IMG/VR virus record: IMGVR_UViG_3300037840_000250
Span: 1 to 28,405 of that record
DNA: 28,405 bases
DNA from: a virus
Reading direction: 5' to 3' (one strand)
The notes beneath the pieces are model-generated. The model was not told the origin of the DNA. It saw only the letters and a program-made list of their open reading frames with translations, and searched no databases. How positions within the stretch are numbered: position 1 is the first letter of the stretch; every line of letters starts with the position of its first letter. This document shows, in pieces, positions 6,210-28,143 of this stretch. The position numbers and the translations under genes were made by a program.

Positions 6210-6422
6210 ATGATTAAGTTCGAAAACAGTGAAAATGGTCGATACTATTATTTATATGTCGTAAAGGATTTATTTAATGCATTGGCTCTCATTACCGTTC
6301 GCGGCGGTCCTCGTAATAATATTCGTAAAAGTAGGTACTTTTGTTCGAGAAAATCAATGCTGCAAGAAATTGAAAAAATTAGCCGCACGCGAATCAAAAG
6401 AGGCTATCGATTGGTTTCATAA
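6210..6422 (+). CDS. Stand-alone WGR-domain protein, 70 residues
   Basis: The whole protein fits one WGR domain: GRYYYLYVVKDLFNALAL (about 10-27), ITVRGGPRNN where R-G-G replaces W-G-R, then a strand KSRYFCS, a helix MLQEIEKISRTRI and the closing KRGYRLVS, matching the family's K-x-x-K-G-Y end. WGR domains bind nucleic acid ends in PARPs and occur as stand-alone proteins in bacteria and phages. The central W-G-R tripeptide itself is not preserved. The last 19 bases overlap convergently with a small - strand gene. The ribosome-binding site is weak (AGGCGG). Confidence 0.62.
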   Translation: MIKFENSENGRYYYLYVVKDLFNALALITVRGGPRNNIRKSRYFCSRKSMLQEIEKISRTRIKRGYRLVS

Positions 6423-6535
6423 ACATTATTAGAAGATTCTATTTCAGATATTATTTTTTCTAATCTTTCATTTGAACTTTTTATTGCTTTATCTATTTCT
6501 TTTTCTAATTCTTTAAAATGACATTCATCTTTCAT
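6404..6535 (-). CDS. Small coiled-coil peptide, 43 residues
   Basis: Reads MKDECHFKELEKEIDKAIKS and continues as a charged helix with heptad-like spacing of I and L to about residue 35. AGG lies ten bases before the ATG at 6533-6535. It follows the tRNA-like region on the same strand and overlaps the WGR gene's 3' end convergently. No family recognised. Similar short acidic/lysine-rich helices are common in phage operons. Support is moderate. Confidence 0.45.
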   Translation of the reverse strand: MKDECHFKELEKEIDKAIKSSNERLEKIISEIESSNNVYETNR

Positions 6536-6552
6536 TTTTTATGACCTAATAA

Positions 6553-6840
6553 TTGAGAATATTCCGGAATTGAACCGGATATGATCTAGTAGTATAAATA
6601 CGGAAACGCTTATCAGGACGCCCCCATCGTTAGAGCCAGTGATTCACACTATATCCGGAATCAAGGAATCGAATGCTCATCTAAAATAGATTCTTAGGGT
6701 TCATAAAATGGAGACTCGAACTCCAGACTTCCCGGATTAAATGTCCAGGCCCTCTAACCATCTGAGGTATTCTATGAACTTTTAAAAGAATTTCTTAACC
6801 TGTTCCTACTGCGTTTCGCCGTCAACGCCGATATTCTCAA
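6553..6840 (-). ncRNA. tRNA-like termini enclosing a second tRNA-like fold (about 288 nt)
   Basis: On the - strand, the 5' end (6840-6831) and 3' end (6562-6553) form a perfect 10-bp stem. Immediately inside the 5' strand is a D-arm-like hairpin (GCGTT/AACGC, 6828-6811, loop GACGGCGA). Directly before the 3' strand is a canonical T-arm: TCCGG, loop TTCAATT, CCGGA (6579-6563). AGTAG (6810-6806) can pair with CTACT (6592-6588) as an anticodon-like stem. The 213 bases between them contain the complete cloverleaf at 6701-6776. It could be a tRNA interrupted in its anticodon loop, a tmRNA-like RNA, or a degenerate tRNA cluster. No group I intron core is recognised. Confidence 0.45.
6701..6776 (-). 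tRNA. tRNA-like gene, tRNA-Asn-like body, unusual anticodon arm (UUU at the anticodon position)
   Basis: A full cloverleaf can be drawn: acceptor CATAGAA/TTTTATG with one G-U, T8-A9, D-stem CCTC/GAGG with loop AGATGGTTA, T-arm TGGAG/CTCCA with loop TTCGAGT, and a 5-base variable loop AAGTC. The anticodon stem has 6 bp (CCTGGA/TCCGGG) and the loop is CATTTAA. UUU therefore sits at the anticodon position, but base 33 is A instead of the nearly invariant U. The anticodon region GGA..TTAATCC resembles bacterial tRNA-Asn. GTT/AAC outside the acceptor would extend that stem to 10 bp. No CCA is encoded. It may be a decoy or a decayed tRNA. Confidence 0.6.
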
Positions 6841-6845
6841 ATAGA

Positions 6846-7403
6846 TTATGACTTACGATCTAATTCGTTTTCAATCTTTTTGTTATTTGAAGTTGATCCG
6901 AAATAATAACCCATTGCCATGACCCAAACGGTAGTTAATGCGCTTATTACAGTTACAATTATTTCTTTATTATCTTCCGGTATACCATGAACGAACAAAT
7001 AGCATAGAGCCATAAATACACCTAAAGTTAAGAGATATGCCAATGTGCTTGCAGTGTAATCTCTCATACCAGCTTTGGCTAAATCAGACTCTCTTTGACG
7101 TGCACTGGCTCTATCTTTGAATTCAGTGAACCTTTGAAGTGAATCATATTTCAATGCGTCATGAGCCATTGCGAGATGTATTTTCTCAATCTCTTCTTTG
7201 TGAGTTGTTTGTATTTCTAATAGTTTAACTGCTGACTGAGGATCAGCTTGAATGCGGGCTAATAAATCATCGGTATCTTGCGAATTTCCACCAAATTTTG
7301 ACGCTATCAGTGAACCAATGGCCACACCCGCTGGCCCACCGATAACACCCCCAAGTAAAGGCGCTGCTTTTGAAATTACTTGAATCAGAGCGTCCATGCT
7401 CAT
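6846..7403 (-). CDS. Three-TM holin (GTA_holin_3TM-like)
   Basis: A 185-residue protein whose order fits the three-TM holin family of gene-transfer agents and podoviruses. It has a glycine-rich hydrophobic N-terminal segment (LLGGVIGGPAGVAIGSLIA), then the helical D-P-x-x-A-V-K-L-L-E block and E-F-K-D-R-A-S-A-R-Q-R-E-S-D. Two C-terminal membrane helices follow, STLAYLLTLGVFMALCYLFV and IIVTVISALTTVWVMAMGYYFG. GGAGG eight bases upstream fixes the ATG at 7401-7403; an in-frame TTG five codons upstream lacks such a site. It would open the membrane for the lysozyme encoded at 5717-6142 on the other strand. Confidence 0.8.
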   Translation of the reverse strand: MSMDALIQVISKAAPLLGGVIGGPAGVAIGSLIASKFGGNSQDTDDLLARIQADPQSAVKLLEIQTTHKEEIEKIHLAMAHDALKYDSLQRFTEFKDRASARQRESDLAKAGMRDYTASTLAYLLTLGVFMALCYLFVHGIPEDNKEIIVTVISALTTVWVMAMGYYFGSTSNNKKIENELDRKS

Positions 7404-7449
7404 GATTAAATCCTCCAAGTTGATAAGAGGACTTTAACATATTTTTTTA

Positions 7450-25654: not shown

Positions 25655-26056
25655 ATGAGTTTTCAAAATTACAATGTTTATGATGGTTTAACATCAGTTC
25701 GATTAGTGCAGGTCGGTAGTCAAGCAGGCACTTATTATAATGGTCCATTGAACAATGGAGTTGGTGCTACTTTCACTAGTGCTTCTAGCACATTTACTAT
25801 TGATGGATTAGTAGTACAAGTTGGAGATAGTGTTCTGTTACAAAATCAAGCTAATGCACAAAATTGCGGTATCTATATTTGTGTAGAACCTAATATCTTG
25901 CAAAGACGTCCTGATTTTCAATCTGTCGAACAGATGAGAGCAGGTCAATTTGTAACTGTTGGTGACGGTAATGCTCAGGCAGGTTCAATATACACATTGA
26001 TTAATCCATTACCATCTTTAATTGGAATTGATCCAATTAATTTTGTTAAAAGTTAA
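25655..26056 (+). CDS. Tail-spike head domain alone, paralogue 1 (133 residues)
   Basis: Consists only of the domain shared with the two following genes: QNYNVYDGLTSVRLVQVGSQ, AGTYYNGPLNNGVGATFTSA, STFTIDGLVVQVGDSVLLQN, CGIYICVEPNILQRRPDFQS, VEQMRAGQFVTVGDGNAQAG. This is the common phage tail module (A-G-T-Y-x-N-G...G-V-G-A-T-x-T...L-x-I-D-G...V-G-D-x-V-L-x-x-x-Q...N-G-I-Y). It has no C-terminal receptor domain, so it may be a truncated copy or an adaptor. GGGAGTTAATATT precedes the ATG. Confidence 0.8.
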   Translation: MSFQNYNVYDGLTSVRLVQVGSQAGTYYNGPLNNGVGATFTSASSTFTIDGLVVQVGDSVLLQNQANAQNCGIYICVEPNILQRRPDFQSVEQMRAGQFVTVGDGNAQAGSIYTLINPLPSLIGIDPINFVKS

Positions 26057-26076
26057 TTATTATTTAGGGGATTAAT

Positions 26077-27129
26077 ATGAGTATTCAGAATTATAACGTT
26101 TATGAGGGGCTTACTTCGGTACGTTTAGTATCAACTGTAAATATAGCGGGTACTTACAACAATGGGCCTTTAAATAATGGTATAGGTTCATTTCTCACTA
26201 TTAATTCCTCTACTTTCTCAGTTGATTTAAAAGAAGTAAATATTGGTGATGACTTATTATTGATTGGTCAAACTAATACAAATGAAAATGGTATTTATAC
26301 TTGTATTCAAACAGGTGGAATATATAGTTTTAGCGCTATTCAGAGACGACCCGATTTTCATGCTGTTGAACAAATGAGATCTGGACAATATATTAGTGTT
26401 GGAGATGGAACTATAAGCCAAGGTAGTATGTATTGCTTGGTTACGCCATTGCCAATTATAATTGGTGTAAGTCCAATTAATTTTGTTGGGACAAGTCCTT
26501 CAATACAAAATTTCACAATTAATACTCCAGATTTAACGCCATTAGCGGATGCAAAAGATTTTGTCGCGTTGACTGGACAAGTAACAAATTTTACGGTTCC
26601 ATTTCATTCAATAACTCCGATCGCAAATAATTATTCTCAAATCACCATAAATGGTCTGACAGAAGGATTCATTGGTGCGGATATCACCAATATAATTGGT
26701 AATGCACCATTGAATGGACAGATTTCTGGAACTACCAATTTTTTTGAAATAAGCGGCGTATTAAGTGGTCAATTATTTTTAACTGGATCATTTTTTTCTA
26801 TGGATTTGAGCAATGCCACTGTTAATGGTGATCAAATTTACGGTCAATGGATTGGGTTTCAAACTAATATAGGAACCCCAAATGATATTACAAATGTAAT
26901 AGGTCAAGTTATAGCAAATGAAACGGGTATTGCATTACAAACTTTCCAATTATTTTCTGGAGATGCAAGTTATCTATTTCAGGCTGAAGGTGCCTCTACT
27001 TATTATACAACTGCTGGGACAGGAGCAGGGCAAGCCGGTGACCCAACGCATTGTAATGCACAGGTAGTTTTAACTGTTAAAATAAATGGATCAAATATTT
27101 ATATACCTGGATTCCAAACTAATTCATAA
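26077..27129 (+). CDS. Tail-spike / receptor-binding protein, paralogue 2 (350 residues)
   Basis: Residues 1-140 repeat the head domain of paralogue 1 (QNYNVYEGLTSVRLVSTVNI, AGTYNNGPLNNGIGSFLTIN, RRPDFHAVEQMRSGQYISVG). Residues about 145-350 are a second, beta-rich domain shared with paralogue 3, containing SMDLSNATVNGDQIYGQWIG and ending GDPTHCNAQVVLTVKINGSN-IYIPGF. Two-domain layout and position at the end of the tail cluster suggest a host-binding spike tip. GGGGATTAAT precedes the ATG. Confidence 0.8.
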   Translation: MSIQNYNVYEGLTSVRLVSTVNIAGTYNNGPLNNGIGSFLTINSSTFSVDLKEVNIGDDLLLIGQTNTNENGIYTCIQTGGIYSFSAIQRRPDFHAVEQMRSGQYISVGDGTISQGSMYCLVTPLPIIIGVSPINFVGTSPSIQNFTINTPDLTPLADAKDFVALTGQVTNFTVPFHSITPIANNYSQITINGLTEGFIGADITNIIGNAPLNGQISGTTNFFEISGVLSGQLFLTGSFFSMDLSNATVNGDQIYGQWIGFQTNIGTPNDITNVIGQVIANETGIALQTFQLFSGDASYLFQAEGASTYYTTAGTGAGQAGDPTHCNAQVVLTVKINGSNIYIPGFQTNS

Positions 27130-27141
27130 AGGATTATTAAA

Positions 27142-28143
27142 ATGTCTTTTTCTCAATATAATTTTAATGGAAATATAACATCTGTTGATGTATCGGCAAC
27201 TACTAATGTTGCTGGTAATTATTATAATGGAAATTCTAATAATGGTGTTGGCGCTCAATTAGTTATTTCGGGAACTACCTTAACAATTGATTCAATAACA
27301 CTTAAAATTGGAAATATTATTTTATTAACAAATCAAACTAATAAGAATGAAAATGGAATTTATGTTTTAAACAATATTGATTTACTAAATAGTCTAATAA
27401 CACTTGAAAGAAGAAATGATTTTCAGTGCATAGAGCAATTAAAATCTGGCCAATATCTCACTGTTGGTGAAGGAACAGAAAATGCTGGTTCCGTTTATAT
27501 TGTTAATGAGCCATTACCAAGTAGATTTGGTATTGATCCTTTAATAATTACATTACCTGCGCCATCAACAGCAGATTTTAACGTCATAACAAGTGGACCA
27601 ACGCCTGGTTTTGTTAATGCATTAACGGCTTCTATAACTTCTCCTGTTGCAATAGTAGATGGTCCAGGAACTAATTTTGAGGTCATTTCTGGTATAGTAA
27701 ATTTAAATGGCGTGGCAAGTTCAGGTCCAATAGTCGGAGTAACAGGTGTTTTAATATCTAAAAGTGGAACATATGATCTCAGTTCTTCATATCTAGCTGC
27801 GGTTGTTGGTGAAATAAATTTTACGGCTGGAAATTCAACAATAAATGGCGCCGAAATGTTCGGGGTACTTTCACTATTCCGTGGTGTCAATACTCCAACT
27901 GATTTGAGTAATGTTAGGGGACTTGGTTCTATTAATCTAAGTATTCAAGAAATAGGTGCTCATTTATATAATCAAGGAACAGCAACTTACTTCTTATTTG
28001 GCACTGGCGTAACTTATAATTCTGCCGCAGGAACAAGTTCTGGATCGGCTGGTGACCCAGCTCACTGTAATGCAAATACTGTTTTGAAAATTTCGATTAA
28101 TGGATCGATTGGTTATATTCCTGTATTCGCAAGTAATGAATAG
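27142..28143 (+). CDS. Tail-spike / receptor-binding protein, paralogue 3 (333 residues)
   Basis: Residues 1-135 are the same head domain, more diverged (SQYNFNGNITSVDVSATTNV, AGNYYNGNSNNGVGAQLVIS, RRNDFQCIEQLKSGQYLTVG). The C-terminal 200 residues match paralogue 2 in the motif GDPAHCNANTVLKISINGSI-GYIPVF and the preceding N-x-G-T-A-T-Y-F / T-A-G-T stretch; elsewhere they differ strongly, as expected for a receptor-contact surface. GGATTATTAAA precedes the ATG. Confidence 0.8.
   Translation: MSFSQYNFNGNITSVDVSATTNVAGNYYNGNSNNGVGAQLVISGTTLTIDSITLKIGNIILLTNQTNKNENGIYVLNNIDLLNSLITLERRNDFQCIEQLKSGQYLTVGEGTENAGSVYIVNEPLPSRFGIDPLIITLPAPSTADFNVITSGPTPGFVNALTASITSPVAIVDGPGTNFEVISGIVNLNGVASSGPIVGVTGVLISKSGTYDLSSSYLAAVVGEINFTAGNSTINGAEMFGVLSLFRGVNTPTDLSNVRGLGSINLSIQEIGAHLYNQGTATYFLFGTGVTYNSAAGTSSGSAGDPAHCNANTVLKISINGSIGYIPVFASNE

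Follow-up and report, generated by a model that had tools for sequence, protein, structure and literature searches.

Plant-virus tRNA-like structures and the yjdF riboswitch occur as the 3' ends of genomic RNAs or in mRNA leaders. The bacterial Y RNA YrlA (RF02553) is a non-coding RNA bearing a tRNA-like domain (PMC7790460), and GOLLD is a large phage RNA located near tRNA islands, with a linker that sometimes bears tRNAs (PMC12286853); GOLLD is the nearest precedent for a tRNA within a phage RNA. In tmRNA (RF00023), a large insert replaces the anticodon arm of a tRNA-like domain. The element described here lies at positions 6840-6553 on the minus strand of the window (the whole 28.4-kb stretch of DNA analyzed, which is an entire virus record), and its outer fold belongs, judging from sequence comparison, to a large and apparently uncatalogued family of phage RNAs that imitate the upper half of a tRNA. 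Like tRNA (RF00005), the members of this family have an acceptor stem that stacks on a T-arm of 5 bp, a D-arm, and a D-loop/T-loop elbow with G19-C56, to which the subgroup of the window adds G18-U55; CCA is sometimes encoded, and arrays with tRNAs are frequent. Unlike tRNA, they have no recognized anticodon arm but an insert of 29-419 nt (median 87 in 134 elements), a 5-bp D-stem with the fixed loop GACRGYGA (the family consensus), mostly A18/G55 at the elbow, and an acceptor stem of 7-10 bp, and their outer fold is missed by the Rfam tRNA model. The replacement of the anticodon arm by a large insert is shared with tmRNA, but no tag reading frame is recognized and no H2-type long helix identified in the elements, which are usually far shorter and can coexist with a real tmRNA in one phage. 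The 5-bp D-hairpin present in the elements also sets them apart from tmRNA. Likeness to YrlA lies in the non-coding RNA with a tRNA-like domain; YrlA, which Chen et al. are said to have reported in phages too in 2014, was rejected as an identity, with no RF02553 match and with a Ro60/TROVE gene (PF05731) in 0/48 element-bearing viral records. GOLLD and ROOL are likewise phage RNAs near tRNA islands, but are much larger and not tRNA-framed, and their Rfam models gave no match at the elements. With the plant-virus structures and yjdF the element has in common tRNA mimicry outside translation (PMC9142559), differing from them in standing alone within the tRNA arrays of DNA phages.

In the window, the outer fold consists of an acceptor-like stem, a D-arm, a 231-nt insert, and a T-arm. 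The 5' strand of the stem, TTGAGAATAT (6840-6831), whose inner 7 nt (AGAATAT) correspond to the family acceptor with a 3-nt extension, pairs perfectly over 10 bp with the 3' strand, ATATTCTCAA (6562-6553), forming a 7-bp acceptor-like stem extendable to 10 bp. A CG linker (6830-6829), equivalent to tRNA positions 8-9 and replaced at most by a close variant in almost all of the 50 members aligned, leads to the D-arm GCGTT-GACGGCGA-AACGC (6828-6811). The insert (6810-6580) stands where a tRNA has its anticodon arm and variable loop and ends in an A immediately before the T-arm, as it does in 125/134 members. The T-arm TCCGG-TTCAATT-CCGGA (6579-6563), identified from the covariance model and family comparison, directly adjoins the 3' acceptor strand in the manner of tRNA, and its T-loop base 2 is T, matching the G at D-loop base 4. 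The 10-bp end pairing, the D-arm-like hairpin, and the T-arm before the 3' strand, all pointed out in a first-pass annotation of this DNA, are confirmed by the minus-strand sequence. Thermodynamics by itself is unconvincing for this outer fold (z of the folding energy -1.76, from thermodynamic folding alone). Homology, unlike the folding energy, is decisive, and the outer fold is therefore accepted as real: a covariance model (R1) built from 54 full-length elements, with the window left out, matched both acceptor-like strands and the rest of the frame at 6839-6552 on the minus strand with 42.1 bits (E=2e-8), spanning the long insert, and the next match scored 8.6 bits. Covariance modelling thus scores the outer arms and not the inner tRNA alone, and the first-pass view of them as a true tRNA-like fold surrounding a second one was upheld. 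No family of Rfam 15 covers the outer fold in the window, where the sole match is the inner tRNA (6776-6701), and BLAST with the element returned only ordinary phage tRNAs.

The second cloverleaf enclosed in the insert, which the same annotation had described as complete and closed by a stem extendable to 10 bp, was recovered both with the Rfam tRNA model (6776-6701, 42.9 bits, E=8e-8) and by ARAGORN, which called tRNA-Lys TTT at 6777-6698 and no tmRNA. A whole-window scan with the fast filters of Rfam listed no match, the inner tRNA included. With its 10-bp stem (GTTCATAGAA, 6779-6770, and TTTTATGAAC, 6708-6699), the cloverleaf extends over 6779-6699 on the minus strand. The suggested checks with the tRNA, tmRNA, and group I intron models gave a match for the inner tRNA and none for tmRNA or intron; in 6400-7000, Rfam recognized no group I intron core even at E-values as high as 5. 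Because the inner anticodon loop, ACATTTAAT, has a non-canonical A at position 33, directly before TTT, it is doubtful whether the inner tRNA decodes, and the inner cloverleaf may itself be a tRNA-like unit rather than a decoding tRNA. An anticodon arm with a 7-nt loop and U33 was recognized neither in the outer fold nor, owing to A33 and the odd loop, in the inner cloverleaf. Elsewhere in the insert, at 6651-6661, TTCCGGATAT is a repeat or complement of sequence in the outer T-arm and acceptor and may be what is left of a further T-arm or belong to an alternative fold.

The family was reached through exact D-arm patterns, so that the counts given here are lower bounds. The exact 19-nt D-arm string of the window was present in six further viral stretches; two of these (L005 and L007) have the identical D-arm within the entire outer fold, with just 56 nt in the middle and without an inner tRNA, and differ from each other by paired changes in the acceptor (AGTCGGT/ACCGACT versus GGTCGGG/CCCGACC), and no fold was recognized around the string in L002, L003, L004, and L006. 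Relatives of the terminase of the window yielded further elements with an altered D-arm, GCGTG-GACAGTGA-CACGC, and a scan with this version found 94 viral stretches, the majority with the full fold; scans for a GACGG version and a U-A-closed version of the D-arm added more. Scanning of bacterial and archaeal genomes gave a few elements, mostly on MAG contigs (L228, L248, L278, L280, and L289). In total, the family comprises at least 134 non-redundant elements with 85 distinct acceptor strands, sampled almost wholly from environmental phage contigs; short queries of named isolate phages (INPHARED) and plasmids gave no convincing element match. A first gapped pattern missed the family, its spacing range being too short, and a second gave mostly ordinary tRNAs. 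No description of a family of tRNA-framed phage elements was found in the open-licence literature searched.

Among 120 distinct D-arm sites, the strict full fold (all 7 pairs of the acceptor and all 5 of the T-stem, with the T-loop at the right junction) was present in 86, against an expectation of 0.0 when the downstream sequence was resampled, the loci having been taken from D-arm patterns only. In 50 joined frames, 99.6% of the pair cells are standard and 15 of the 17 pairs have changes on both sides, with a covariation score of 0.777 compared with 0.152 in shuffled and about 0.1 in slid controls, although this set is biased, since the search had made use of the acceptor, T-stem, and T-loop and the elements were partly picked for pairing. 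The arms accordingly change together in the relatives, as the first-pass annotation had required of a genuine fold. Less biased are the resampling comparison and the count at the elbow, for which T-loop base 2 was left free. The pair formed by base 4 of the D-loop and base 2 of the T-loop, which we take to be tRNA positions 18 and 55, the contact docking the D-loop on the T-loop, is A/G in 98, G/T in 32, A/T in 3, and A/C in 1 of the 134 elements, that is, with four exceptions to an A/G-or-G/T rule; that of the window is G/T, the canonical type. The neighboring G19 is invariant, by search design as well as in the alignments, and base 56 is nearly always C. Since such a long-range correlation between the D-loop and T-loop is hard to explain without a folded RNA, it is almost certain, on these sequences, that the two loops dock as a tRNA-type elbow. 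Acceptor stem, D-arm, and T-arm in tRNA order were found in the window with the held-out model, and the D/T elbow by covariation in the 134 members.

In contrast to the conserved frame, the inserts are largely unrelated. No common sequence motif was found among them, and sub-types are shared by some members (L059/L151/L161/L184, L164/L248, L053/L140, and L130/L205/L278). They fold slightly better than shuffled sequences (mean MFE z -0.59), and an H-type pseudoknot adjoining the T-arm can be drawn in many short inserts, with a mean z about 1.1 above shuffles; this excess is modest and the window offers no clear example, and a common insert pseudoknot is no more than suggestive. A further T-arm hairpin is present in 7/113 inserts (0.2 in shuffles), and an inner T-arm with a closing stem nearby in five (0.025 in shuffles), namely those of the window, L156, L316, L329, and L340. 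Nested tRNA-like units therefore recur, inner T-arms being far more frequent than in shuffles; a complete inner cloverleaf was present only in the window among the inserts examined. The hexamer GAACAG occurs 4-8 nt past the D-arm in four inserts with inner T-loop hairpins (the window, L157, L316, and L319).

The elements share the strand with most of their recurrent neighbor genes and frequently lie in close same-strand succession with tRNA genes or further elements. One locus (L163) reads element, tRNA-Gln, element, head-to-tail on the same strand; L202 has tRNAs between two elements, L156 a gap of 2 nt between element and tRNA gene, and L222, L164, and L131 further series of this kind. Matches to tRNA were detected in 20 of the 48 element-bearing viral records and none in the other 28, and a tRNA array is therefore not obligatory. 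CCA is encoded at the tRNA position in 15/134 elements. No universal protein partner or neighbor gene was found across the elements. In the 224.7-kb record G037 (that of L187), the region 58613-59056 includes a true tmRNA (98 bits); the phage also has its element, separate from this tmRNA, and 26 tRNA matches. The virus of the window encodes a terminase as well as a P22-like portal and a phage major head protein. The element sits between two same-strand genes that have no assigned function in Pfam or PHROGs: upstream a 190-aa gene of phrog_1544, of unknown function (6846-7418, minus strand), whose stop codon lies 5 nt short of the element, and downstream a small ORF of 43 aa without a family (6535-6404, minus strand). 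The holin operon in which the first-pass annotation had placed the element finds no support in Pfam or PHROGs, and the 190-aa protein, used as a route to relatives of the element, recovered none. Near-identical 10-mers flank the element (6846-6855 and 6539-6548; TAAGTCATAA and TAGGTCATAA on the minus strand), as a target duplication might, or which could be due to chance.

Comparison among the members shows a tRNA frame, covarying stems, a covarying elbow contact, and frequent same-strand co-location with tRNAs, and the identity of the element as a member of a tRNA-framed RNA family is very likely. We consider it probable that 6840-6553 encodes a phage non-coding RNA built on this frame, one whose maturation and folding imitate those of a tRNA and which carries a variable payload. 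In the predicted RNA, the acceptor stem, D-arm, and T-arm would form the frame, with the D- and T-loops docked and a hypervariable structured insert standing for the anticodon arm. By analogy with tRNA biology, RNase P would cut at the 5' end of the acceptor, the 3' end would be trimmed and CCA added, and the mature product would persist as a stable tRNA mimic unable to decode, with the insert acting as the variable effector part; the earlier suggestion of a structured RNA with tRNA-like processing is in this sense probably right. Less confidently, the RNA would most likely act on host factors that recognize the acceptor and elbow, either by occupying them or by being carried by them; candidates are a nuclease directed at tRNA or some other protein that binds tRNA. 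In this virus the insert carries a second, tRNA-like cloverleaf. For the family as a whole, we lean toward the view of a widespread class, absent from Rfam 15, in which the tRNA body is used as a modular chassis, the anticodon arm being exchanged for interchangeable RNA domains, sometimes a tRNA or tRNA-like unit, so that the resulting RNAs would enter the host tRNA pathway without decoding.

A specific form of this mechanism, possible but somewhat unlikely, is that of a decoy in counter-defence, offering acceptor and elbow as bait to host tRNA-attacking nucleases or toxins without an anticodon to cut. A tRNA frame lacking an anticodon and the co-location with tRNA arrays agree with it; phage tRNA arrays are discussed as antidefence units (PMC12803027), and the tRNA-like domain of YrlA has been proposed as a competitive inhibitor of anticodon nuclease (PMC7790460). 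A decoy, however, leaves the variable, structured insert unexplained. In a second reading, the frame gives only maturation signals and stable ends, all function residing in the insert and differing from virus to virus, as would suit a conserved frame with unrelated inserts of several sub-types in arrays with tRNAs; yet the D-loop/T-loop contact is so strictly kept that the elbow seems to have a function of its own, more than processing is likely to need, and we hold this reading, too, to be somewhat unlikely.

The remaining explanations concern what the outer fold is. The first-pass annotation had offered a tRNA interrupted in its anticodon loop, with an intron or another tRNA to be removed before decoding, and the outer acceptor, D-arm, and T-arm do follow in tRNA order. 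No family member, however, has a recognized anticodon arm, and most hold unrelated structured inserts, some of only 29 nt, for which reason we favor a frame with a payload over a split tRNA; T-loop base 55 is moreover G in about three-quarters of the members and no group I intron matched, so that an interrupted tRNA appears very improbable. A divergent tmRNA, which would suit the size of the window element and the tRNA-like ends around an insert, deserves hardly any credence: the tmRNA covariance model matched at no element examined, the 5-bp D-hairpin is present, members of about 86-130 nt contradict it, leaving little room for a tag and pseudoknot region, and L187/G037 has a true tmRNA besides its element, in keeping with the original doubt that this was a tmRNA. 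Finally, a normal phage tRNA with coincidentally complementary flanks would agree with the weak folding z-score but is refuted by the held-out model match and by the family itself, and its probability is next to nil.

The family enlarges the known RNA content of phage genomes by a sizeable, apparently uncatalogued group whose clear structural signature escapes automatic annotation. Its elbow, swapping between G18-U55 and A18-G55, is a natural system in which the requirements of the elbow contact can be tested. Should the RNAs be decoys or carriers, they would represent a new phage means of engaging the tRNA enzymes of the host, and in bacteria the frame could be put to use as a ready scaffold on which RNA domains are displayed. 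Some minor observations were made alongside. About 130 nt upstream of its element, L102 has on the minus strand a tRNA-like unit with another D-arm (GGGATGGAGCTCGAAAAGCT ... GCGGGTGAAATTCCCGT-CATCCC-ACCA), which may point to further types of tRNA-framed RNA, and in L059 a second, diverged unit starts straight after the element (GGCAATCGCGGCGTGTAGGAAACGC...) as a tandem copy whose D-loop has changed. In L005 (2977-3339) and L007 (566-928), reverse-strand ORFs extend across the T-arm (GAGIEPARRHGHI...), an artefact that typically arises when tRNA-like sequence is translated at the end of an ORF. In the window, three successive ORFs at 25655-28143 have repeats of the FQSVEQMRAGQFVTVGDG type in common and are apparently duplicated structural or fibre genes.
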